DNA of 64,000 bases from contig NZ_JAIVKX010000021.1 of assembly GCF_020524285.1 (NCBI RefSeq), positions 1 through 64,000 on the forward strand, in the 5' to 3' direction. The position numbers were made by a program, and so were the translations under genes. Below the pieces are notes generated by a model that saw only the letters and a program-made list of their open reading frames with translations, did not search any database and had not been told where the DNA came from. This DNA is from Alloyangia pacifica (lineage in GTDB: Bacteria > Pseudomonadota > Alphaproteobacteria > Rhodobacterales > Rhodobacteraceae). Every line of letters starts with the position of its first letter. Position 1 is the first letter of the stretch. Below, in pieces: positions 5,535 to 38,413 of this stretch.

Positions 5535-7616
5535 ATGACACAGGTAGAGATCACGGCCGACAGGGCCGCGGGGCAGGCCGACCCGCTCGCGGCGCTGAAC
5601 GAGAACCAGCGCGCCGCCGCCACCTTCGGCGTGGGGCCGGGCGATGCCGCGCCGGCGGGGCCGCTGCTGGTCATCGCCGGGGCGGGCTCGGGCAAGACCT
5701 CCACGCTGGCGCACCGCGTGGCGCACCTTTTGATGAACGGCGCCGATCCGCAGCGCATCCTGCTGATGACCTTCTCGCGCCGCGCCGCCACCGAGCTGAC
5801 CCGCCGGGTCGAGGCGATCACCAGCCGCGCCATGGGCACCGGCATCGTCGCCGAGGCGCTCACATGGGCCGGCACCTTCCACGCCATCGGTGCGCGGCTG
5901 CTGCGCGAGCACGCGCCCGCCATCGGGCTGAACCCCGAGTTCTCGATCCACGACCGCGAGGACAGCGCCGACCTGATGAACCTGTGCCGCAACGGGCTGG
6001 GGTTCTCGGCCAGCGAGAAGCGCTTCCCGGCCAAGGGCACCTGCCTGTCGATCTACTCGCGCGCGGTGAACGCGGGCGAGCCGCTGGCCGAGGTGCTGCG
6101 CGACCATTTCCCCTGGTGCGCCATGTGGGAGGCGGAGCTGAAACAGCTCTTCGGCGCCTACGTGCGCGCCAAGCAGGAGCAGAACGTGCTCGACTACGAC
6201 GACCTGCTGCTGGCCTGGGCGCAGGTCATGTCGGATGCCGAGTTCGCCGCCCACATCGGCGGCGCCTGGGACCACGTGCTGATCGACGAGTACCAGGACA
6301 CCAACCGGCTGCAGGCGCGCATCCTGATGGCGCTGAAGCCGGACGGCCGCGGGCTGACCGTGGTGGGCGACGACGCGCAGTCGATCTACGCCTTCCGGGC
6401 CGCCACGGTGCGCAATATCCTCGACTTCCCCGCCGCCTTCACCCCGCCCGCCGATGTCATCACGCTCGACCGCAACTACCGCTCGACCGTGCCGATCCTC
6501 GAGGCCGCCAACGCGGTGATCGGCCAGGCCCGCGAGCGCTTTACCAAGAACCTCTGGACCACCCGCGCCTCGGCCGAGAAGCCGCGGCTGGTGACCGTCA
6601 ACACCGAGGCCGACCAGGCGCGCTACATGGTGGACCGCATCCTGCAGGAGCGCGAAACCGGCACCGCGCTGAAGCAGCAGGCGGTGCTGTTCCGCACCTC
6701 CAGCCACTCGGTGCAGCTCGAGGCCGAGCTGACCCGGCGCAACGTGCCCTACGTGAAATTCGGCGGGCTGAAGTTCCTCGACAGCGCGCATGTGAAGGAC
6801 CTGCTGTCGGTGCTGCGGCTGGCGCGCAACCCGCGCGACCGGGTGGCGGGCTTCCGGGTGCTGCAGCTCATTCCCGGCATCGGGCCGAAATCGGCGGCGA
6901 ATATCCTCGAGGCGCTCGATCTCTCCCCGGAGCCCATCGCGGCGCTGCAGGACGTGGCGCCCCCGGCGAAGGCCGAGGCCGACTGGCCCGGCTTTGTCGC
7001 CGCGATGACCACGCGCGCCCCCTGGCCCGCCGCCATCGGCCTTGCCCGCGCTTGGTACGAGCCGCATCTGACCCGCATCCACGAGGATGCCGACACCCGC
7101 CGCGACGACCTGCTGCAGCTCGAGCAGATCGCCATGGGCTACCCCTCGGCCGAGGCTTTCCTGACCGAGCTGACGCTCGATCCGCCCGACGCCACCTCGG
7201 ACCGCTCGGGGGTGCCGTTGAAGGACGAGGACTATCTCATCCTGTCGACCATCCATTCCGCCAAGGGCCAGGAGTGGAAATCGGTCTACCTGCTGAACGC
7301 CGTCGACGGCTGCATCCCCTCGGATCTCGGCACCGGCTCGACGCCGGAGCTCGAGGAGGAGCGGCGCCTGCTCTACGTCGCCATGACCCGCGCCAAGGAC
7401 CGGCTGACGCTGGGCTTGCCGCTGCGCTTCTACGTGACCCAGCAGAGCCGTGGCGGCGACCGCCATGTCTATGCCACGCGCACCCGCTTCATCCCGCGCG
7501 AGTTGCTGGACCATTTCGAGAGCGAGCACTGGTCGCCCACGCCGCAGGGCAGCACCCCCGCCCCGGCGCCGGGGCGGATCGATATCGCCGCGCAGATGCG
7601 CGACATGTGGGGCTGA
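5535..7616 (+). CDS. UvrD/Rep-type ATP-dependent DNA helicase
   Basis: Superfamily 1A 3'-5' DNA helicase, 693 aa, the usual size of UvrD/PcrA/Rep. Motif I is VIAGAGSGKTSTLAHR (~47-62), motif II LIDEYQDTN (~249-257), motif III VVGDDAQSIYAFR, motif IV TLDRNYRSTVPIL, motif V STIHSAKGQEWKSVYL, and motif VI EEERRLLYVAMTRAKDRL. All catalytic residues (Lys of motif I, Asp-Glu of motif II, Arg of motifs IV and VI) are present. It presumably unwinds DNA in repair or replication restart. It stands alone with its own leader, and the start follows AGGATCGGGCAGCAG. It could be the main UvrD or a plasmid-borne paralogue; this cannot be told from the sequence. Confidence 0.93.
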   Translation: MTQVEITADRAAGQADPLAALNENQRAAATFGVGPGDAAPAGPLLVIAGAGSGKTSTLAHRVAHLLMNGADPQRILLMTFSRRAATELTRRVEAITSRAMGTGIVAEALTWAGTFHAIGARLLREHAPAIGLNPEFSIHDREDSADLMNLCRNGLGFSASEKRFPAKGTCLSIYSRAVNAGEPLAEVLRDHFPWCAMWEAELKQLFGAYVRAKQEQNVLDYDDLLLAWAQVMSDAEFAAHIGGAWDHVLIDEYQDTNRLQARILMALKPDGRGLTVVGDDAQSIYAFRAATVRNILDFPAAFTPPADVITLDRNYRSTVPILEAANAVIGQARERFTKNLWTTRASAEKPRLVTVNTEADQARYMVDRILQERETGTALKQQAVLFRTSSHSVQLEAELTRRNVPYVKFGGLKFLDSAHVKDLLSVLRLARNPRDRVAGFRVLQLIPGIGPKSAANILEALDLSPEPIAALQDVAPPAKAEADWPGFVAAMTTRAPWPAAIGLARAWYEPHLTRIHEDADTRRDDLLQLEQIAMGYPSAEAFLTELTLDPPDATSDRSGVPLKDEDYLILSTIHSAKGQEWKSVYLLNAVDGCIPSDLGTGSTPELEEERRLLYVAMTRAKDRLTLGLPLRFYVTQQSRGGDRHVYATRTRFIPRELLDHFESEHWSPTPQGSTPAPAPGRIDIAAQMRDMWG

Positions 7617-28863: not shown

Positions 28864-29075
28864 TTCGGTCCCATCCGGCAAGCGCCTGGTCTGATTCTTC
28901 GAATCGAATCGGACCTTTGCGACTCGGTCTTGGGCCAGCCTGCGTGGGCGATGGGCGCGGAAGACACGCAAATCGGCGGATCCCGCGTTTCGAGACTATT
29001 AGCTTTTGCCATGAATGCAAATTCAGCGTAAATTCCAGCCCATCGGAAATTAGCGTCCCGCAGTTTCGCAAAGCC

Positions 29076-29228
29076 TGTCCCCGCGGGGACAGGACGACAG
29101 GACAGCGTCCCGGCCGGGACTGCACGCAGACCGTCCCCGCGGGGACAGAAACCATAGAGTGTCCCCGCGGGGACAGATCCAAAAGCGCCCGCAGCGGCGC
29201 GACGGACACAAGCGTCCCCGCGGGGACA
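29076..29228. repeat. Cluster of five partition-type palindromes in the repA leader
   Basis: Copies of TGTCCCCGCGGGGACA lie at 29076-29091 (perfect), 29132-29147 (15/16), 29160-29175 (perfect) and 29213-29228 (15/16), plus a decayed copy GTCCCGGCCGGGAC at 29107-29120. The last copy abuts the AGGAGG ribosome site of repA. They probably bind the ParB-type RepB, giving both partition and autoregulation of repAB. Confidence 0.75.
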
Positions 29229-29237
29229 GGAGGCAGG

Positions 29238-30542
29238 ATGTTTACACATGAAGACCTGGCGCGGCTGCAGGCGCAGTCGCTGAAGATGCAGGGATGGATC
29301 CGGCAGCAGACCTTCTCGCCAGAGATGGAGAAGACCCTGCGCCGCTTCTCGAGCTGGGAGGTGGCCGAGCTGATCCTGCAGGTGAACCAGTCGACCCTGC
29401 GGGGACGCATGGCCGCCGACCCGCATCTGCCGCAGGGGCTGGTCGAGGAGGACGGCCGCCAGCGCTGGTACTCGCTGGAAGAGATCAACGAGATCCGCCG
29501 CAAGCTGAAGGTCAACCGCAAGAGCCTGATGCCCTACCGGCCGGCGAACAAGCGCGCCTTCCGCGTCGCCATCTCCAACTTCAAGGGCGGCGCCGGCAAG
29601 TCCACCGTGGCGCTGCACTTCGCCCATGCCGCGGCGCTCGACGGCTACCGGGTGCTCTGCGTCGACTTCGACCCGCAGGCGACGCTCAGCCACTCGATGG
29701 GCCTGTCGGACATCACCGAGGAATACACCGTCTGGGGCATCATGGCCCGTGACCTGATCCGCGAGACCGAGCGGATGAACGCCGCCACCCGCGGCGCCGA
29801 GAGCGGCTCCGCCCTGCCCCAGCGCAAGCTGCCCGAGGCGATCACCTCCATGGGGCTGCGCGATCTGCGCGCCGCCGACTTCATCAAGCCGACCTCCTGG
29901 CCGACGATCGACGTGATCCCCAGCTGCGCCAACGCGGCCTTCGTCGAGTTCGCCTCGGCCCAGTACCGACACCTGAACCCCGAGTGGTCTTTCTTCGCCG
30001 CAGTGAGCCGCTACCTCGACAGCCTGCCGCCCGACGCCTACGACCTGGTGATCTTCGACTGCCCGCCGGCGATCGGCTACCAGAGCATGAACGCGGTCTT
30101 CGCCGCCGACATGCTCTACATCCCCTCGGGGCCGGGTTACTGGGAGTACGATTCCACCACCTCCTTCATCGGGCAGCTCTCCGAGGCGCTCGGCGATTTG
30201 TCGGGCTTCGAGGGGGTTGTCCCCGCGGGGACACTCACCCTGCCGAAGGCCTTCCTCGACATCCGCTTCCTGCTGACCCGTTATGAAAGCGGTAACGAAT
30301 TGCACCGCGCGATGCGGCAAGCCTTCCAAAAGGTCTGGGATGAGAGAATGACCGAGCACCCGATCGAGATGACCCGCGCGGTCGAACAGTCCGGGCGCTT
30401 CTTGAGCTCGATCTACGAGATCGACTACCGCGAGATGACGCGGGAAACCTGGCGCCGGGCGCGCGCCTCCTTCGACCGCGCCTACGAGGAGTTCCGCAGC
30501 CACGTGCAGGTGGCCTGGGACAAGCTGGAGGATGAGGCATGA
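29238..30542 (+). CDS. repA: RepA, ParA-type plasmid partition ATPase
   Basis: 434-aa ParA-family ATPase that moves or positions the plasmid. An N-terminal extension with a helix-turn-helix region (WEVAELILQVNQSTLRGRM; residues ~35-60) precedes the deviant Walker A loop SNFKGGAGKSTVALHF (~115-130). The Walker A' region is VLCVDFDPQATLS and Walker B DLVIFDCPPAIGY. Length and extension match RepA proteins of alphaproteobacterial plasmids. The ATG at 29238 follows AGGAGG. A perfect palindrome (30218-30233) lies inside the gene at codons ~327-332 and encodes VPAGT. The stop overlaps repB by 4 bp. Confidence 0.92.
   Translation: MFTHEDLARLQAQSLKMQGWIRQQTFSPEMEKTLRRFSSWEVAELILQVNQSTLRGRMAADPHLPQGLVEEDGRQRWYSLEEINEIRRKLKVNRKSLMPYRPANKRAFRVAISNFKGGAGKSTVALHFAHAAALDGYRVLCVDFDPQATLSHSMGLSDITEEYTVWGIMARDLIRETERMNAATRGAESGSALPQRKLPEAITSMGLRDLRAADFIKPTSWPTIDVIPSCANAAFVEFASAQYRHLNPEWSFFAAVSRYLDSLPPDAYDLVIFDCPPAIGYQSMNAVFAADMLYIPSGPGYWEYDSTTSFIGQLSEALGDLSGFEGVVPAGTLTLPKAFLDIRFLLTRYESGNELHRAMRQAFQKVWDERMTEHPIEMTRAVEQSGRFLSSIYEIDYREMTRETWRRARASFDRAYEEFRSHVQVAWDKLEDEA
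30218..30233. repeat. Partition palindrome inside repA
   Basis: A perfect TGTCCCCGCGGGGACA embedded in the repA coding sequence, read as V-P-A-G-T. It shows that the site family extends through the coding region rather than being confined to leaders. Confidence 0.8.
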
Positions 30543-31654
30543 GCAAGCGACGCGGTTTCGACATCGACTTCCCCGCGGGGACGGAAACGCCCGAGCAGGA
30601 GGAGTTCCCGCGCGGCCCCGTGGGCTATTACACCGGCGGCGGACGGGCCAAGCCGGGCGCGTCCCGGCGGGGACCGATGGCGGCGGCCATCTCGGAGAAC
30701 GCCGATGCGCTGCGCGACCGGGCCGAGGCCGAGCGCGCCATCCGCGAAGAGAACGACCGGCTGGCGCATGATTACGTACGGCTGAAGCGGGCAGGGTTGA
30801 TCACCGACCTGGTGCCGATCGACGCGGTGTTGACCACCAAGCTGACCCGCGACCGCGCCGCCGGGCCGGACCCGGAGATCGAAGAACTGAAGGCCTCGAT
30901 CCGCGAGGTCGGCCTGTCGAACCCGATCCGCGTCGAGCCGGTGGACGATCACTTCGAGCTGGTGCAGGGCTTCCGGCGCCTTTCGGCCTACCGCGAGCTC
31001 TACGCCGAGACCGGCGACGAGGCCTATGCCCGCATCCCCGCGGGGCTGGTCGCCTCGGGCGAGGCGCTGGTCGGTCTCTACCGCAAGATGGTCGACGAGA
31101 ACCTGGTGCGCCGCGGCATCTCCTTTGCCGAGATGGCGCAGCTCGCGCTGGCCTTCGCCCGCGATCCCAATACCGAGACCACCGACACCGACGAGGCGAT
31201 CGCGCTGCTCTACGCCTCGGCTGGTCGGCAGAAGCGCAGCTACATCCGCCATTTCGCCACGCTGCTCGAGGAGCTGGGCGACGATCTGAACCATGCCGAG
31301 GCGATCCCGCGCAAGCTCGGGCTCGACCTGGTCAAGCGCATGGGCGACGAGGAGGGCTTCACCGAGGGGCTGCGCGAGATGCTCTCGGGGCAGGGCGAGG
31401 TGTCGTCCGACTACGAGGTGGCGCGGCTTGCCGACGCGCTGAAGACCGCCCCCAAGGCCGGTCCGAAACCCAAGGGCACCAGTGCAAATGCCGCCGCCAA
31501 GACCACGCTGCGCTGCACTGTCCCCGCGGGGACAGTCCGCTGCGCGGCGCGCGACGGCAAGGTCGAGCTGGCCATGGAGCGCGACTTCTCGAGCATCGAC
31601 CGCCATCGTCTCGAGGCTGCTGTCGCCGCCTTCATGGCGGCGCTCGACGAGTAG
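30539..31654 (+). CDS. repB: RepB, ParB-type centromere-binding partition protein
   Basis: 371-aa ParB-family protein. The N-terminal ParB/Sulfiredoxin (CTP-binding) fold is visible as VPIDAVLTTKLTRDR...IEELKASIREVGLSNPIRV, then FELVQGFRRLSAYREL. The box-II arginines of canonical ParB (GERRxR) are represented by GFRRLSA. A HTH-like central region follows (RRGISFAEMAQLALAFA). It is translationally coupled to repA (ATGA). The gene contains a perfect palindrome at 31519-31534 and partial ones at 30569-30582, 30661-30674 and 31034-31047. It is expected to bind the palindromes throughout the locus. Confidence 0.91.
   Translation: MSKRRGFDIDFPAGTETPEQEEFPRGPVGYYTGGGRAKPGASRRGPMAAAISENADALRDRAEAERAIREENDRLAHDYVRLKRAGLITDLVPIDAVLTTKLTRDRAAGPDPEIEELKASIREVGLSNPIRVEPVDDHFELVQGFRRLSAYRELYAETGDEAYARIPAGLVASGEALVGLYRKMVDENLVRRGISFAEMAQLALAFARDPNTETTDTDEAIALLYASAGRQKRSYIRHFATLLEELGDDLNHAEAIPRKLGLDLVKRMGDEEGFTEGLREMLSGQGEVSSDYEVARLADALKTAPKAGPKPKGTSANAAAKTTLRCTVPAGTVRCAARDGKVELAMERDFSSIDRHRLEAAVAAFMAALDE
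31519..31534. repeat. Partition palindrome inside repB
   Basis: A perfect TGTCCCCGCGGGGACA inside the repB 3' portion, read as V-P-A-G-T in the protein (residues ~327-332). Confidence 0.8.
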
Positions 31655-31693
31655 GCCCCGCAAAGCCACCAAGGCAAATCGCCAGCAGGGATC

Positions 31694-31726
31694 AGCCCCT
31701 GTCCCCGCGGGGACAGGGGCTTTTTA
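31694..31726 (+). terminator. Extended palindrome acting as repB terminator and partition site
   Basis: The 16-bp palindrome at 31700-31715 is extended by AGCCCC on the left and GGGGCT on the right to a perfect 28-bp inverted repeat (31694-31721), followed by TTTTAG. A stem of this strength with a T-run 40 bp after repB has the form of a rho-independent terminator, so one sequence may serve both DNA segregation and transcription stop. Confidence 0.7.
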
Positions 31727-32348
31727 GTGCCCGCCATGTCCCGGGACGCGCTGCCTGTTTGTCCTGTCCCCGCGGGGACAGGGGCTGATTGCGGCGCGGT
31801 GTCTTTGGTCTGTCCCCGCGGGGACAGACCGCGCGGCGGCAGCGCGCACGGTCGCTTCGGGGGAGGTGGCCCCGCGGGGACAGACGGCGCAGTGCTGCAG
31901 CGCCTAGACCGAACGCCCGGTGTCCCCGCGGGGACATAGGGGACCCGGAGCCGCCCGGACGCCTGTCCCCGCGGGGACAGAATGCCGGGGCGGTGGCGGC
32001 AGGGCGTGAAAGGCGGGTGTCCCCGGGGGACAGCACCCGAGCCGAGCTGTCCGTTTGCCTGTCCCCGCGGGGACAAGACCCGAGCGACTGTCCACCCGAG
32101 ACCCGTCCGTCCCCGCGGGGACGGGGGCTGCCGCGGTGCCGCGGAGCCTTCATATCCGGGGGTGTCCCCGCGGGGACAGCGCCCCCGGCGCTCTTCGCCT
32201 GGATCGAAATATCCCGGAAGGAGCCTACCGCAGGCCGGCGGGGGCAGAGCCGCCGATGGCTCCTGTCGAAGCGCACACGGCAGTTCGACCCGCGCGGAAT
32301 GACGCCTGCCTCGAAGACGCGCGCGATTTGCTTGTCCCCGCGGGGACA
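31700..32348. repeat. Partition palindrome array downstream of repB
   Basis: Eleven copies related to TGTCCCCGCGGGGACA lie in 650 bp with no gene. Perfect copies are at 31700, 31765, 31811, 31921, 31964, 32060, 32163 and 32333. Near-perfect copies are at 31867 (TGG start) and 32108 (C/G outer bases). A 15-nt version lacking the central C is at 32018. Spacing is 42-65 bp except the last (170 bp). The spacers share no evident sequence. This is best explained as a centromere (parS) array for RepB. The whole 31655-32517 stretch has no supported gene. Confidence 0.8.
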
Positions 32349-32517
32349 GCCAAGACATCCTCAGGAGATGAAAGTATTATGTTAATAAACTGGCAGGAGA
32401 GGCCCTCGATCTTGTCGGCAAGCCGCCGCTCGCAAAAGGAGAGCGCTCTGCAAATCTTTCCCGCCAGAGCGAAATCCGCGCTATTCTCGAAGGATTCCTT
32501 TTCTTTGCAGGCCTTTG

Positions 32518-34035
32518 ATGTCCAGAGTAGCCAGATACCCCGCCGGATTGCCCTCGCTCTTTCTTGTCGAGATGTGGGAACGCTTCAGCTTCTACGGCAT
32601 GCGCGCGATCCTCGTGCTCTACCTCGTCGACGCGGTGGAGACCGGGGGGATGGGGCTCGAGACCGCAGAGGCGGTGGCGATCTACGGCATCTACTCGGCG
32701 GCGGTCTACATCCTCGCATTGCCCGGCGGCTGGGTGGCCGACCGCTTCTGGGGCGCGCGCAAGGCGATCATCGCCGGCGGCGCGGTGATCATCCTCGGGC
32801 ACATCCTGCTGGCGATCTCGGGCGCGACGGCCTGGATCTTCCTTGCAGGGCTCTGTTGCATCGCGCTGGGGACGGGGCTGCTGAAGCCGAATATCTCGAC
32901 CATGGTCGGCGAGCTCTACCCCAAGGACGACGTCGGCGGGCGCGACGCGGGCTTCTCCTTCTTCTACATGGGGATCAACGTCGGGGCGATCCTCGGCGGA
33001 TTCGTCGCCGGCTATCTGGGCGAGGTCTGGGGCTGGCACTGGGGCTTCGGCGCGGCGGCGGTGGCCATGGCGCTGGGGCTGATTAATTTCCTTTGCGCCG
33101 GGCAGCGCTCGCTGCGCGGCAAGGGCGAGCGACCGCCGCCGAAGGTGGTGGACCCGGCGACGAAGTGGCGCGACAGCATGGTGAGCCTCGGGATCACCGG
33201 CGCGGTGGTGGTGCTTCTCGCGCTGCTGATCGGCACCGGGGTGATCGAGGTGACCAGCGCCGCGGGCGTGGCACAGGCGACCGGCGTGCTGATCGTCACC
33301 GTGGCGATCGGGTTCTTCCTCAACATCTACATCGCCGGGGACCTGTCGCGGGACGAGAAGAAGCGGATGATCGTGCTTGCCGTGCTCTTCGTCGCCGCGG
33401 CGGTCTTCTGGTCGCGCTTCGAGCAGGCGGGCTCCTCGCTGTCGATCTTCGCCGCCGAGCTGACCCGGCGCGACCTTCTGGGCTTCGAGGTGCCGGCCTC
33501 GTGGTTCCAGAACCTCAACCCGGCGTTCATCATCCTGCTGACGCCGCTCTTCGCCTGGTTCTGGACCCGGGCCCAGGACCGGGGCTGGGAGATCTCTGTC
33601 TTCGTCAAGTTCGGGCTGGCGCTGGTGCTGGTCGGCTTCGGCTTCTGGATCCTCGTGCCCGCGGCGCAGATCGCGATGACCGGGGCGAAGGTCTCGGCGC
33701 TGTTCCTGATCGGCACCTTCTTCATCCACACCTGCGCTGAGTTGCTGCTCAGCCCGGTGGGGCTGTCGACCTTCTCGCGGCTGGCGCCGGAGCGCTTCGT
33801 CAGCCAGATGATGGGCTTCTGGTTCCTCGCGGCCTCGCTGGGCAACCTGCTGGCCGGGCTGCTCGCGGCGGGCATGGACACCGAAACGCCCTCGGCGCTG
33901 CCGGGGCTGTTCAACCAGCTCTTCTTCGGCAGCGCGATCGCGGGGCTGGTGCTGATCGGCCTGTCGTGGCCGCTGACCCGCTGGGCGCTGTTGGGCAAGG
34001 CGGCGATCGAGGAAGAACAGCGGACGGGCCACTAG
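32518..34035 (+). CDS. POT-family proton-dependent oligopeptide transporter
   Basis: PTR2/POT symporter of about 505 aa with 14 or so TM segments. The N-terminal signature LVEMWERFSFYGMRAILVLYL carries the ExxER proton-coupling motif (E-x-W-E-R). PTR2 motifs GTGLLKPNISTMVGELYP and DAGFSFFYMGINVGAILGG are clear. It imports di/tripeptides with protons. An in-frame TTG one codon upstream (32515) is an alternative start; the ribosome site is weak. It lies directly downstream of the partition array. Confidence 0.92.
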   Translation: MSRVARYPAGLPSLFLVEMWERFSFYGMRAILVLYLVDAVETGGMGLETAEAVAIYGIYSAAVYILALPGGWVADRFWGARKAIIAGGAVIILGHILLAISGATAWIFLAGLCCIALGTGLLKPNISTMVGELYPKDDVGGRDAGFSFFYMGINVGAILGGFVAGYLGEVWGWHWGFGAAAVAMALGLINFLCAGQRSLRGKGERPPPKVVDPATKWRDSMVSLGITGAVVVLLALLIGTGVIEVTSAAGVAQATGVLIVTVAIGFFLNIYIAGDLSRDEKKRMIVLAVLFVAAAVFWSRFEQAGSSLSIFAAELTRRDLLGFEVPASWFQNLNPAFIILLTPLFAWFWTRAQDRGWEISVFVKFGLALVLVGFGFWILVPAAQIAMTGAKVSALFLIGTFFIHTCAELLLSPVGLSTFSRLAPERFVSQMMGFWFLAASLGNLLAGLLAAGMDTETPSALPGLFNQLFFGSAIAGLVLIGLSWPLTRWALLGKAAIEEEQRTGH

Positions 34036-34458
34036 GGCGGCGAGCAGATATTTTGTTCGCGGAATGCGATGTTCGCTTAACGTACTATCAGTATTTGACA
34101 AATCATGGCGCGCGCTCGGTGATAAAATGTTCGAAGGGGAGACATTTGCAGCTTGTGGTTGCCTCTCCACGTGACGCGGGGCGAAATTCGCGGTAGCTTA
34201 AGCTGCAACGCAGCACGCCATGTGCAGCGGGCCGGGGCATAGTGCCTCGGGACGTTGCCTAGCCTCGCGGCCAATTTGAACGACCTGTTTAATTTTATGG
34301 AATTTCTTGAGCGCCTCGGCGCCAGCATCGGGATGGATGCGTTGGCAGATGTCCCCGAAGCCTCGGCGCCGCAAAAGGTCTGACCCGGAGTTTTCGCCGG
34401 CGGGCAGGGGCGCAGACGGCCGCATGCAGGCCCGACAGATTTTGAGTGGAGTTATTTT
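34036..34458. other. AT-richer intergenic region
   Basis: 423 bp without a gene, visibly lower in GC than its surroundings. TTGACA at 34095-34100 is followed 19 bases later by TGATAA, a weak sigma-70-like pair. The sequence TTTAATTTTATGG near 34288 and a purine-rich stretch before 34459 may be the leader of the TetR-fusion gene. No operator dyad was identified. Confidence 0.4.
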
Positions 34459-36120
34459 ATGGAGGACAAAAGCGTGACGAATTCGGATTCGGAGTCCAGC
34501 GGCAACGGTGCCGCGCGGCGTCATTGGAAACAGAATCCGGAAGCGGTGCGTGCCAATATTCTCGAGGTCGCCCGCCGGGCCTTTGTCACACACGGTCTGA
34601 CCGGGGCGAAAATCGATGACATCGCGGCGGGCACCGAGACCTCGAAGCGGATGATCTACTACTACTTCGGCGACAAGGAGGGGCTCTACAGGGCGGTGAT
34701 GGAGGATGCCTATGCGCGGGTCCGCGCCGCCGAGGACGAGCTCGAGCTGGCCAGCCTGCACCCGGTCGAGGCGTTGCGCCGGCTGGCGGAGTTCACCTTC
34801 GACCACCACGCCGAGCACGCGGACTTCGTGCGTCTGGTGATGGTCGAGAACCTGCACAATGCGCGGCACATGGAAAAGGCCGGCGACCTGTCGGGGCAGA
34901 ACATCTCGGCGATCCGGCTGCTCGATGCGATCTACCAGCGCGGCTGCGCCGAGGGGCTGTTCCGCCGCGGGCTGAGCGCGCTCGAGCTGCACTGGCATAT
35001 CTCGGCGCTGGCGATCTTCAACGTGGCCAACCGGGCGACCTTCTCCAGCCTGTTCGGCGACAGCCTGTTCGAGCCCAAGGGGCAGCAGCAGCTGCGCCGC
35101 CACGTCGGCGACATGCTGCTGCGCTTCGTCATGCGTCCGGGCCTGTCGGTGGAGGAAGCCTCGGTGCGGCCGATCGCCGAGACCCGCGCCATCCATCCCG
35201 ACATCTACCGCTTCCGCGAGACCTGGGACGCCACCTGGGCGACCTTGCCGACCGAGGGCGACGCGGCGACCCGGCGGCTGCATTTCGAATCCGTCTCGCG
35301 CTCGCTGCGCCTGCCCAGCCCCGAGGGAGTGGAAACCGACGAGGAGCATTGGATCGACACCGATTGCGGCCCCGTGCGGGTGCGGCTGTTCCGCCCGCCC
35401 GGCACCGAGCCGCTGCCGGCGCTGATCTACCTGCACGGCGGTGCCTGGCGGCAGGGCAGCCCCGAGACCCATTGGAACATCACCTCGCGGCTCGCCGCCT
35501 GGTCGGGCCACCTGGTGATCTCGGTGGACTACGCGCTGGCGCCGGAGCATCCCTATCCCGAGGCGCTGCAGCAGATGCCGGCGGTGATCGCCTGGGCGCG
35601 GGAGCAGGCCGCGACGCTGGGGCTCGACCCGGCGCGGCTGTCGATCGGCGGCGACGGGGCTGGCGGCAATCTCGCTGCGGCGGCGACGCTGATCTGCCGC
35701 GATGCCGGGGTGCCGCTGGCGGCGCAGCTGCTGATCTACCCGGTCTGCGATTTCGACACGTCGCGGCCCTCCTGCTCGGAGTATTCCGAGGGGCCGCTCT
35801 GGACGCTGGCGCAGCTTCTGTCGGCGCATGCGCAATATTGCCCGGACATGACGTTGCGCGAGCGCGACCCGCTGGTGGCGCCGTTGCTGGCGGCGGATCA
35901 CTCCGGGTTGCCGCGGGCCTATCTGGCGCTGGCCGAGCACGACCCGCTGCGCGACAGCGGCCTGGCCTATGCCGGGGCGCTGGAGGCGGCGGGTGTTCCT
36001 GCGGAGGTCGATCCCGGCAAGGGGCTGGTGCGCGACTACCTGCATGCCATCGGCTTCGGCAGCGCCGCCGAGGACCGGCTGCGCGACATGAGCGCCTGGC
36101 TGAAGCGGACGGTGGGGTAG
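34459..36120 (+). CDS. TetR DNA-binding domain fused to an esterase-like alpha/beta hydrolase domain with Ser-to-Gly nucleophile
   Basis: 553-aa fusion. Residues ~30-75 form a TetR/AcrR HTH (ILEVARRAFVTHGLTGAKIDDIA, then TETSKRMIYYYFGDKEGLY). Residues ~80-230 form a helical TetR-type core. Residues ~285-553 form a hormone-sensitive-lipase-type hydrolase domain with the oxyanion motif YLHGGAW (HGG 326-328), ALAPEHPYPEAL, the acid Asp495 (EHDPLRD) and His529. The nucleophile elbow, normally GDSAGG, reads GDGAGG, with codon GGG at 35656, so the catalytic serine is Gly400. The domain may bind an ester- or lactone-like ligand without cutting it. It follows the peptide transporter on the same strand; its target is unknown. 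Confidence 0.85.
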   Translation: MEDKSVTNSDSESSGNGAARRHWKQNPEAVRANILEVARRAFVTHGLTGAKIDDIAAGTETSKRMIYYYFGDKEGLYRAVMEDAYARVRAAEDELELASLHPVEALRRLAEFTFDHHAEHADFVRLVMVENLHNARHMEKAGDLSGQNISAIRLLDAIYQRGCAEGLFRRGLSALELHWHISALAIFNVANRATFSSLFGDSLFEPKGQQQLRRHVGDMLLRFVMRPGLSVEEASVRPIAETRAIHPDIYRFRETWDATWATLPTEGDAATRRLHFESVSRSLRLPSPEGVETDEEHWIDTDCGPVRVRLFRPPGTEPLPALIYLHGGAWRQGSPETHWNITSRLAAWSGHLVISVDYALAPEHPYPEALQQMPAVIAWAREQAATLGLDPARLSIGGDGAGGNLAAAATLICRDAGVPLAAQLLIYPVCDFDTSRPSCSEYSEGPLWTLAQLLSAHAQYCPDMTLRERDPLVAPLLAADHSGLPRAYLALAEHDPLRDSGLAYAGALEAAGVPAEVDPGKGLVRDYLHAIGFGSAAEDRLRDMSAWLKRTVG

Positions 36121-36239
36121 GGGGCACTGCCCCTGAGGGCTCTTGTCGCGCGCGGTCGGTCTGGGCGCGACAGCCGTGGTCGCTGCGGACCCCGGTGGAG
36201 AGGCATTACGGCACCACCGGGGCGGCGCAGGGCCCCCTG

Positions 36240-37517
36240 TCAGAAGGCGCTGGTCAGCCCCGCGCCGATCCGCAGGTCACGGTAGCTGTAGGCGTCGAAG
36301 GTGCTGTCGCGCCGGGCCGTCTCGATCTGCAGGTAGGGGGTGAAGCGCCCGAAGACGAAGGTATCTGTCTTGTCGACGCGCAGCTCGAGACCGTATTCGG
36401 TCTCGTAGCGGGCCTTGCCGAGCCCCGGCGTGGCGCCGAACTGGTCGTAGGCCGCGGCATAGACAGACGGTTCCAGCAGGAAGCCGCCGCCCACCTCGAC
36501 CCGGCCGGCGAGCCGCAGTTCGGCGTAGTCGTAGGTCAGGTCGTCGCGCTCGGCTTGCTGGTGCTGCAGTGACAGGCTGCCGCCGATCTGCGCGCGGCCG
36601 CGCAGCGGGCGGATCACCGAGAGCCGGGCGCTGGCGCGCTGCACATCGACGCCGGGATAGCGCCCGAGGCTGACATCGTGCCATTCCGCCTCGAGCGTGG
36701 TGGTCAGGCCGAGCGCGTTGCGCCAGCTGACCCCGGCGCCGAGGCCGAGCCGCTCCTCGACCATCTCGCCGCCGAAATAATCGGTGCCGGCGATGGCCTC
36801 GGCCCAGGCGGTGGTCTGCGGCCAGGTGAGCTGCAGCCCGGCGCTGAGATCGGCGCCGAGCTCGTCCCAGTCGGTGCCGGAGGTCTGGTAGAGATCACCC
36901 TCGGCCTGCAGGTAGCCGGTCAGCGTGGCGCCGCCCTGGCGGGCGCGCAGCGGGAACTGCTTGCGGATCGCCCCGGCGAGTTCGAGGCCGGTCAGGGGCG
37001 CGTCGTCGTCGCGGTTCATCTTCAGCACCAGCGGCCCGGTGCCGAGGTCGGCCGCGATCTCGTCGCTGTCATAGGCGCGCCCGGCGCCCTCGGGGGCGCG
37101 CAGCGAGAATGAGAAGCGGGTGCGCAGACCCTGGCGTTCGTCGATGGCGCGCAGGAAGCGCAGCACGTTGGCCCGCACGCTCGGCGGCAGGTCGGGGCTC
37201 GACAGCACGATGCGGAACTGTTCGCGCGACTGCGCGTATTCCCCGGCCTCGAAGAGCGCGCGCGCCAGTTCGAGTCGCACGCGCAGCAGCCCGGGATCGG
37301 TGGCGAGCAGCCCGCGCAGCAGCCGCACGGCGGTTTGCGGCCGGCCCTGGGCGAGGGCGGCGAGCGCTTGCCGGAAGCTGGCGTCCATCTGGGCCGGGGC
37401 AGGGGGGGCGGCAGCCGGTGCGGCGGCCTGCTGCGCCTGCGCCCCGGGCGCCCCGGCCACCGGGAGCATCGCGGCGAGCGCGAGCGCGGTGGCCAGGGCC
37501 GTCCACTTGGGTCGCAT
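36240..37517 (-). CDS. Slam-type surface lipoprotein assembly modifier (DUF560 family)
   Basis: 425-aa outer-membrane protein. A signal peptide occupies residues 1-28 (ALATALALAAMLPVAGAPGAQA). Then comes a TPR-like periplasmic part (residues ~45-125; FRQALAALAQGRPQTAVRLLRGLL, LRVRLELARALFEAGEYAQSREQF). A C-terminal ~290-residue beta-barrel with alternating strands ends in a terminal Phe (AGLTSAF), the BAM signal. This TPR-plus-barrel layout is that of Slam proteins, which move lipoproteins to the cell surface. It starts 2 bp after the stop of a TbpB-like lipoprotein gene, its probable client. Confidence 0.8.
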   Translation of the reverse strand: MRPKWTALATALALAAMLPVAGAPGAQAQQAAAPAAAPPAPAQMDASFRQALAALAQGRPQTAVRLLRGLLATDPGLLRVRLELARALFEAGEYAQSREQFRIVLSSPDLPPSVRANVLRFLRAIDERQGLRTRFSFSLRAPEGAGRAYDSDEIAADLGTGPLVLKMNRDDDAPLTGLELAGAIRKQFPLRARQGGATLTGYLQAEGDLYQTSGTDWDELGADLSAGLQLTWPQTTAWAEAIAGTDYFGGEMVEERLGLGAGVSWRNALGLTTTLEAEWHDVSLGRYPGVDVQRASARLSVIRPLRGRAQIGGSLSLQHQQAERDDLTYDYAELRLAGRVEVGGGFLLEPSVYAAAYDQFGATPGLGKARYETEYGLELRVDKTDTFVFGRFTPYLQIETARRDSTFDAYSYRDLRIGAGLTSAF

Positions 37518-37519
37518 GG

Positions 37520-38413
37520 TCAGCGGCTGTCGTCGACCGCGCCGAAGGCGCCGATATAGGTGCTGTCGGCGGTGGTGCCCGAGAAGGTGCCGCCGACCTC
37601 CTGCGCATTGTCGCCGTAGAACTGCCCGTCGAGCGAGCCGCTCAGATCGTCGGTGACGATATCGGCGGCAAAGCCGGTGCCGCTGACCGATCCCGCGGTG
37701 TAGAAATCGAGGTCGGGGCGGTCGCCGGTGATCTCGCCGGTCGCCGGATCGGCGGTGATCGTGTCGCTGCTGTAGATCTCGACGGTATCGAAGTCGGTGT
37801 CCACCGCGATGTAGGAGGTGGTGACGGAAAGCTGCCCGTCGGTGACCACCTGCCCGAGGCTGTCGCCGTAGTAGCTGGCGGTGCCGGTGGTGGGCATCTG
37901 GCTCTCGGAGGTGCGCACGCCGAGCGAGCCCGCGCCGGCGACGCGGCTGCTGCCGGTGAGGCCGGTCTGCCAGGCGCCGAAGGTCTGGTAGCTGTAGCCC
38001 TGCTGCTCGGGATCGGCGACCACGAGCATGACGTCGCCATCGGCGCTGGTGGCGACAAAGCCGCCCTCCACCGTGGTGAGGTCAAAGCTGTCGCCAGCGG
38101 CGGTGGACAGGGTGAAGCTGCCCGTGCTGGTGGTCAGCGTGGCGGCGATCAGATCGCCGTCCTCGTAGGTGAGATCCGCGGTGATGTCGCCCTCGGTCTC
38201 GGGGGTGCCGAAGGCAAGGACATTGCCCTCTGCATCGGTGGTGTAGCCCGAGGAGACCGCCATGCCGTTGGCACGGTAGGTGCCATCGGTCGGCGGGGCA
38301 AAGGAGCTGAGCGGGGTGGGGGTGGCAGAGGAGCCGCTGCGGGCGCTTCTGCTACCGTCGCCGCAGGCTGCAACAAGCGCAAGCGCGGCGGCACTGATCA
38401 AAACGTACTTCAT
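37520..38413 (-). CDS. TbpB-like surface lipoprotein, probable Slam client
   Basis: 297-aa lipoprotein. The signal ends in the lipobox LVAAC with acylated Cys at ~17. A Ser/Thr-rich linker follows, then a beta-rich body. The C-terminus LDGQFYGDNAQEVGGTFSG is the hallmark of the transferrin-binding-protein B-like beta-barrel (G-x-FYG-x-x-A-x-E-x-GG-x-F). GAGGAA precedes the ATG. Co-transcription with the Slam-like gene strongly suggests display on the outer surface. The ligand could be iron, haem-carrier or host/environmental protein; nothing in the sequence decides it. Confidence 0.8.
   Translation of the reverse strand: MKYVLISAAALALVAACGDGSRSARSGSSATPTPLSSFAPPTDGTYRANGMAVSSGYTTDAEGNVLAFGTPETEGDITADLTYEDGDLIAATLTTSTGSFTLSTAAGDSFDLTTVEGGFVATSADGDVMLVVADPEQQGYSYQTFGAWQTGLTGSSRVAGAGSLGVRTSESQMPTTGTASYYGDSLGQVVTDGQLSVTTSYIAVDTDFDTVEIYSSDTITADPATGEITGDRPDLDFYTAGSVSGTGFAADIVTDDLSGSLDGQFYGDNAQEVGGTFSGTTADSTYIGAFGAVDDSR

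Follow-up and report, generated by a model that had tools for sequence, protein, structure and literature searches.

A gene in the window (the whole 64,000-nucleotide stretch of DNA analysed here) encodes a TetR-type regulator and an HSL-type hydrolase in a single chain, and the hydrolase half has lost both the nucleophilic serine and the catalytic histidine of its triad. The protein is probably an autoregulated TetR-type repressor in which the former esterase serves as a ligand pocket, the ligand being bound but left uncut.

Results

A TetR regulator and an HSL-type hydrolase share one reading frame

One uninterrupted open reading frame on the forward strand specifies a chain of 553 residues with TetR_N, TetR_C_29 and an HSL-type hydrolase domain, and the Pfam matches all lie above their cut-offs (Table 1). 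This bears out the first-pass annotation of this DNA, which had described a TetR helix-turn-helix (HTH) and an HSL-type hydrolase in a single 553-aa protein. TetR_N, TetR_C_29 as the C-terminal ligand/dimer domain, and an operator-like site close to the gene that relatives have too, place the protein in the TetR family. The other half has the alpha/beta-hydrolase fold with cap, the HGG motif and the triad aspartate (Asp495) of HSL family IV, and lacks the GxSxG nucleophile and the triad histidine of that family, the two positions being taken by Gly400 and Arg525. Among the NCBIfam models, the best TetR match was RutR at 40.5 bits, far under its cut-off of 368, and the nearest hydrolase model was LipP1 at 233.9 bits (cut-off 350).

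Table 1. Features of the fusion gene and its surroundings, in window positions.
Feature	Position	Strand	Remarks
POT/PTR2 oligopeptide:H+ symporter	32515..34035	+	upstream, codirectional; 8/8 genus loci
Putative TetR operator TGAACGACCTGTTTAAT	34277..34293	+	182 bp before the start codon; conserved block in a diverged leader
TetR-HSL fusion gene	34459..36120	+	553 aa; ORF and Pfam
TetR_N DNA-binding domain	34558..34698	+	residues 34-80; Pfam 44.8 bits, cut-off 24
TetR_C_29 domain	34762..35115	+	residues 102-219; Pfam 140.2 bits, cut-off 26.2
First cap helices of the hydrolase	35197..35313	+	residues ~247-285; 4/39 positions vary among 7 genus members
Abhydrolase_3 (HSL family) match	35422..36033	+	residues 322-525; Pfam 194.7 bits, cut-off 25
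Oxyanion-hole motif HGG, kept	35434..35442	+	residues 326-328
Gly400 (GGG), position of the nucleophilic Ser	35656..35658	+	codon and alignment
Asp495, triad Asp, kept	35941..35943	+	sequence and alignment
Arg525 (CGC), position of the catalytic His	36031..36033	+	alignment with relatives and EST2
His529, non-triad position	36043..36045	+	Arg in 53/53 Ser-type rows; Gln in one genus member
Slam-like protein	36240..37517	-	convergent neighbour; 8/8 genus loci
TbpB-like barrel protein	37520..38413	-	8/8 genus loci

Two triad residues are missing from the hydrolase half

Full-length fusions filled 40 rows of our alignment, 9 of which were removed as identical apart from their ends. The remaining 31 distinct fusions comprise 21 with Ser-Asp-His, 8 with Gly and Arg525, all from the window's genus (named records: Alloyangia and Salipiger), and 2 from Martelella with Gly and the histidine kept. 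A further 32 rows, hydrolase-only (29 different, 3 duplicates), retain Ser and His and make up, with the 21 fusions, the 53 Ser-type rows referred to below.

In the window protein the nucleophile motif reads IGGDGAGGN, and codon reading upheld the glycine that had been noted at codon 400 (GGG at 35656). We rejected a sequencing or assembly error as the source of this glycine: it is found in 10 of the 31 distinct fusions, from different assemblies, and no support for an error was found. HGG, Asp495 and His529 had likewise been listed as kept, which is correct for the first two but not for the histidine. In all 53 Ser-type rows H-G-Y-(L/M)-R aligns with R-D-Y-L-H (525-529) of the window protein and, since every one of them places the H of this motif in that column, the position of the triad histidine is occupied by Arg525. 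The HMMER alignment with EST2 (2hm7, 1evq) gives the same register, the His of 'LIHGF', which we take to be the catalytic His of EST2, falling on the Arg of 'LVRDY'. Position 529 is moreover Gln in one of the eight genus members, and on these three grounds we rejected His529 as the triad histidine. With Gly400 and Arg525 the window fusion has therefore lost two triad residues, not one; judged by its sequence, the domain lies outside the catalytic HSL esterases, both residues tested, Ser and His, being missing.

A rewired enzyme, with some other nucleophile or with His529 serving as base, is a very unlikely reading. His and Arg do look swapped between 525 and 529 (H-G-Y-L-R to R-D-Y-L-H), and HGG and the aspartate remain, yet the Gln at 529 in one genus member speaks against a catalytic role for this position, and the nucleophile motif, GDGAGG or GDGAGA, offers no nucleophilic residue where the serine was.

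The Gly forms make up one clade

The ten Gly forms fall into a single clade, with support of 99/98 in the hydrolase tree (63 rows, 60 of them different), 99/97 in the fusion tree (31 rows) and 98/96 when columns 400, 401, 525, 526 and 529 are omitted. The window protein lies inside the fusion clade of the hydrolase tree, in common descent with fusions from quinate/shikimate clusters, on a long branch to its genus (0.57 and 0.56 changes per column). The simplest order of events would begin with the loss of Ser, that of His following on the lineage that leads to the window's genus. Whether glycine is conserved among the fusions, a question put by the first-pass annotation, has a divided answer: it is constant in one 10-member clade, whereas 21 of the 31 distinct fusions keep Ser. 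Serine-keeping homologues, named there, if active as esterases, as evidence against a pseudo-enzyme, thus do exist, though all of them outside the Gly clade.

Within the genus, 7 of 20 genomes searched have the fusion. A draw of 394 genomes from the family gave 37 with any match at E<=1e-60 and matches over at least ~530 query residues in G000, G061, G110, G210, G240 (two places), G257 and G247, the last at 47% identity and with one internal stop codon; in a draw of 385 genomes from the class, 11 had any match and just G000 and G517 had long ones (in both draws mostly 3 candidates were scored per genome). The two long TetR-hydrolase matches in G240, L114 and G240:C93:57740-59347, are of 52% and 50% identity. 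In the hydrolase tree L114 branches apart from the main fusion clade and is possibly an independent fusion event; the hydrolase-only row L116 (G086) lies inside that clade and is possibly a secondary split of a fusion.

Ser-type fusions lie beside quinate/shikimate genes

Using representative neighbours as tblastn queries, we found at least one of three markers, namely a shikimate/quinate dehydrogenase, a QuiC-like 3-dehydroshikimate dehydratase and a type II dehydroquinase, in all 21 Ser-fusion loci tested (dehydrogenase 19/21, QuiC 13/21, dehydroquinase 4/21), all 22 two-gene TetR + hydrolase loci tested and both Martelella Gly loci. The Ser-fusion loci are those of 20 distinct fusions plus L175 (probably from the same genome as L024); L114, which is the 21st distinct fusion, and the short loci L104, L115-L122 and L126 of further relatives were left out. 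Mechanical greedy ORF maps missed some of these neighbours, showing the dehydrogenase in 13 of 20 Ser loci. On the locus maps, the quinate/shikimate genes are mostly divergent from the TetR gene and accompanied by TRAP transporter genes. In L016 the QuiC-like protein scores 682 bits with the NCBIfam QuiC model, under the cut-off of 1200, and has a TIM-barrel plus HPPD make-up, an arrangement described for QuiC1 and QsuB (PMC7442255). Six of the 22 two-gene loci (L035, L036, L038, L042, L047 and L055) show a 4-base overlap between the mechanically called TetR and hydrolase ORFs, so that a fusion would be an easy step.

In the window's genus, by contrast with these loci, the same marker genes were found in none of the eight loci searched (the window, L009, L010, L011, L087, L088, L168 and L169), and the fusion gene has the neighbours given in Table 1. 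The genome of the window does have a separate quinate cluster, on contig C9, whose standalone TetR shares 55% identity with the TetR half of the fusion.

A 16-bp palindrome, TGTCCCCGCGGGGACA, forms an array at 29076-32348 of the window (and 12135), with 17 copies at up to 2 mismatches against a mean of 0.07 in shuffles. It lies in and around the genes at 28917-30542 and 30539-31654, whose relatives are annotated as AAA ATPase and ParB, and stops right before the POT gene; L011 has 13 copies, L087 17, L088 18, L169 20 and L089 only 2. From its sequence context, the array is perhaps a partition centromere.

An operator-like site precedes the fusion and its relatives

The stretch TSKRMIYYYF in TetR_N is identical in all 31 distinct fusions. 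Upstream of the coding region, the leaders of Ser fusions have a common block of the type TGTTCnnnncGGTTAATT, often in two copies, and the genus leaders keep TTTGAACGAnCtGTTTAATT among their conserved blocks, the remainder having diverged. Leader blocks of the types AATGTTCG and GTGACG...TATAC, picked out by eye from the alignment, may be a candidate half-site and promoter. No consensus sigma-70 promoter was found in the fusion leader, the sole promoter-like match within 32200-36300 being at 32352-32380, before the POT gene.

The pattern TGWWCnnnnnGKTTAA, which was drawn by eye from leaders of the same set in which it was later counted, has an exact match upstream of 8 of the 10 Gly fusions, two of these eight being near-copies, and of 19 of the 21 Ser fusions. 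It is likewise matched before 16 of the 28 TetR genes that share their locus with a hydrolase, and before 43 of the 59 TetR-only genes. For this count ~330 bases before residue 18 were scanned in 118 of 127 leaders, 9 duplicates having been dropped. The reversed pattern had no exact match in any of the four leader sets. With up to one mismatch the numbers were 9, 20, 26 and 55, respectively, against 1 per set in the control; G016 (L098, a genus member) and the Ser fusion L029 had no recognisable site even at one mismatch. As the recognition helix and the operator-like site are both kept, these data support retained DNA binding and autoregulation, short of demonstrating either.

In the 5.7-Mb genome of the window, a 17-mer pattern has 2 matches, one in the fusion leader (C21:34277) and one at C11:148363. 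Across the 20 genus genomes it has 7 places, with five in front of the fusion and another, in G001, in front of a standalone TetR, while the backward controls have 0; the G008 leader, which differs by one base in the leader alignment, was missed. The 16-mer has a third exact match in the window's genome, at the divergent quinate promoter on C9. When one mismatch was allowed, it gave 102 matches vs 58 for the control in this genome, which makes such matches uninformative and leaves only exact ones with much meaning. Scanning G016 and G018 (L168, L169) for an operator before the POT gene returned a sole exact match, the fusion-leader site of G018.

The match at C11:148363 (TGTTCAATTCGGTTAAT, L143 7364-7380) is exact and lies ~310 bp before an ORF of 1203 aa; the same pattern has no match there in other genus members, and we took it as chance or private to this genome and rejected it as a shared target. 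Tandem sites of the type TGAACnnnnnGGTTAA, mostly 29-30 bp apart, are present in L142 (C9) at 7440-7485 and in L170-L174, at the divergent quinate/shikimate promoters of the genus beside a standalone TetR. By sequence, they are a candidate quinate regulon of this family of TetR proteins.

The fusion might also have kept a role in quinate/shikimate metabolism and act in trans on the quinate cluster found elsewhere in its own genome. Such action overlaps the reading that we prefer, so that the probabilities we attach to the various readings exceed a sum of one; we regard it as unlikely. The C9 cluster has related sites (TGAACCCGGCGGTTAA and TGAACTCGTGGGTTAA), and QuiC is present in all 7 genus genomes that carry the fusion vs 7 of the 13 that lack it, a weak association. 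However, that cluster has a TetR of its own, with a slightly different recognition helix (TSKRMIFYYFQDK), and in G018, where the fusion is present, the quinate cluster has no site even at one mismatch.

The hydrolase half is still constrained and is predicted to fold

We compared selection on the parts of the protein by dN/dS (own Nei-Gojobori script), using 7 of the 8 genus sequences (L088, a near-copy of L096, was omitted), 10 of the 21 Ser fusions and the 2 Martelella sequences; pairs with dS of 2 or more were dropped, and 44 of 45 pairs were retained in one cell. In the genus the values were 0.06 for the HTH, 0.17 for TetR_C and 0.27 for the hydrolase, in the Ser fusions 0.07, 0.17 and 0.15, and in the one Martelella pair 0.01, 0.09 and 0.16. 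Because the hydrolase stands at 0.27 vs 0.15 while TetR_C is 0.17 in both groups, its constraint is on average relaxed in the genus, a comparison that the difference in dS (0.43 in the genus vs 0.86 in the Ser fusions) may bias. The genus thus remains under purifying selection, which looks weaker than in the Ser fusions.

Among the 7 genus members, variable positions amount to 6/46 in the catalytic loops, 4/39 in the first cap, 17/41 in the second cap and 81/181 in the rest of the hydrolase, and among the 10 Ser fusions to 8/46, 15/39, 14/41 and 80/181. Compared with the rest of the domain, the catalytic loops (Fisher p 7e-5) and the first cap (p 4e-5) of the genus vary less; between genus and Ser fusions the first cap differs (p 0.007) and the second cap does not (p 0.65), all of these tests being post hoc, with hand-set borders and with relatedness ignored. 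These counts therefore indicate that the genus holds its catalytic loops about as firmly as the Ser fusions do, and its first cap more firmly, although buried catalytic loops may be conserved for folding alone. Out of 113 hydrolase columns that are at least 90% uniform in the Ser-type rows, 19 are no longer uniform in the genus or have a different majority letter there. Seven of these lie around the former His, six within 524-531 and one at 534.

An AlphaFold2 model (62 sequences) had a mean pLDDT of 87.9, with values above 90 for most blocks beyond residue 280 and of 70-87 for residues 241-280; at a pTM of 0.60, the predicted placing of the TetR and hydrolase halves relative to each other is unsure. 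The 50 PDB chains listed as structure matches to the model are all HSL-type esterases or lipases (TM to target 0.80-0.93), and none of these 50 covers both halves together (TM to query at most 0.52).

The chief rival to a ligand-binding role is that the hydrolase half is a relic that adds bulk or aids dimerisation, the TetR_C_29 pocket alone sensing the ligand. The higher dN/dS of the genus hydrolase would fit such a relic, as would the exact sites before most TetR genes without a hydrolase in the DNA examined, since these TetR-only genes imply that the TetR part can work alone. On the other hand, the hydrolase has stayed open and full-length in eight genus sequences, less variation is seen in its catalytic loops and first cap than elsewhere in the domain, and the first cap is tighter in the genus than in the Ser fusions, with no such difference in the second cap; on balance we consider a relic rather improbable. 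The pseudo-enzyme proposed by the first-pass annotation gains support instead, because the Gly forms are one clade, the histidine too is lost in the genus, the predicted fold is intact and the defunct catalytic loops remain constrained.

Discussion

We infer a protein whose TetR half would bind the TGWWCnnnnnGKTTAA-type operator in its own leader and most likely repress transcription of the fusion itself, perhaps with another promoter under its control too. Its C-terminal half would be a former HSL-family esterase that would have given up hydrolysis through the changes of Ser to Gly400 and of His to Arg525. Keeping the fold, the oxyanion motif, the aspartate and a constrained pocket region, this half would most likely act as the pocket for a ligand and relay the signal to the TetR half. 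The fusion may sense an ester, a lactone or an acyl compound; for its ancestors, the descent from quinate/shikimate clusters points to an ester of the quinate or shikimate type.

As to ancestry, a TetR gene and an esterase gene, neighbours in quinate/shikimate clusters, would have fused with the triad intact; Ser would then have been lost in a form such as that of Martelella, which keeps its His, and finally, in the window's genus, His was presumably lost and the cluster left behind. It is quite conceivable, though we stop short of calling it probable, that these forms trace a stepwise transition from enzyme to receptor, parallel to the origin of GID1: separate genes, an active fusion that maybe hydrolysed its own inducer, a form without Ser that had not yet left the quinate cluster, and a pure sensor lacking both Ser and His at a new address.

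We found no description of a TetR-HSL fusion, nor of a TetR regulator for such a quinate cluster, in the open literature, as judged mostly on titles and the openings of abstracts. The passages of PMC11878206 that we examined describe no TetR-hydrolase fusion, one match there being LytTR, and the quinate passages of PMC8102297 concern Gluconobacter enzymes. A by-product of this work is a candidate TetR-operator pair for alphaproteobacterial quinate/shikimate clusters.

Receptors derived from hydrolases, such as GID1 and DAD2/KAI2, pose the question of how an enzyme turns into a sensor. Here each stage seems to be represented by living relatives, in bacterial single chains with a DNA-binding output of their own, and what each lost residue does to signalling could therefore be measured. 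The Ser-type fusions (e.g. L016 from Marivita lacus, L020 from Pseudooceanicola antarcticus, and L090), in which the triad is intact and which lie beside quinate/shikimate genes where tested, would represent transcription factors with the possible ability to hydrolyse their own signal, an inducer ester.

With TetR one-component regulators (PF00440 with TetR_C_29, PF17938) the window fusion shares the HTH, the TetR C-terminal domain and a short imperfect inverted repeat in its own leader, and it differs from them by its full-length C-terminal HSL-type hydrolase domain. With the bacterial HSL (family IV) esterases, e.g. EST2 and Est8, it has in common the Abhydrolase_3 fold, HGG and the triad Asp, but it lacks the nucleophilic Ser and the catalytic His and is joined to a TetR regulator. 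The alphaproteobacterial quinate/shikimate TetR + esterase pairs (e.g. L027, L031, L036 and L041) have homologous TetR and hydrolase proteins and the same operator type, but as two genes and with an intact triad. GID1, which the first-pass annotation had invoked, is akin to the fusion in logic only, as an HSL-derived domain that would serve as a receptor without enzyme activity; the pattern of losses differs, since GID1 has lost His and keeps Ser and Asp (PMC3531792), whereas the fusion has lost Ser and His. Whereas GID1 signals through partner proteins, the window fusion has its DNA-binding part in the same chain.
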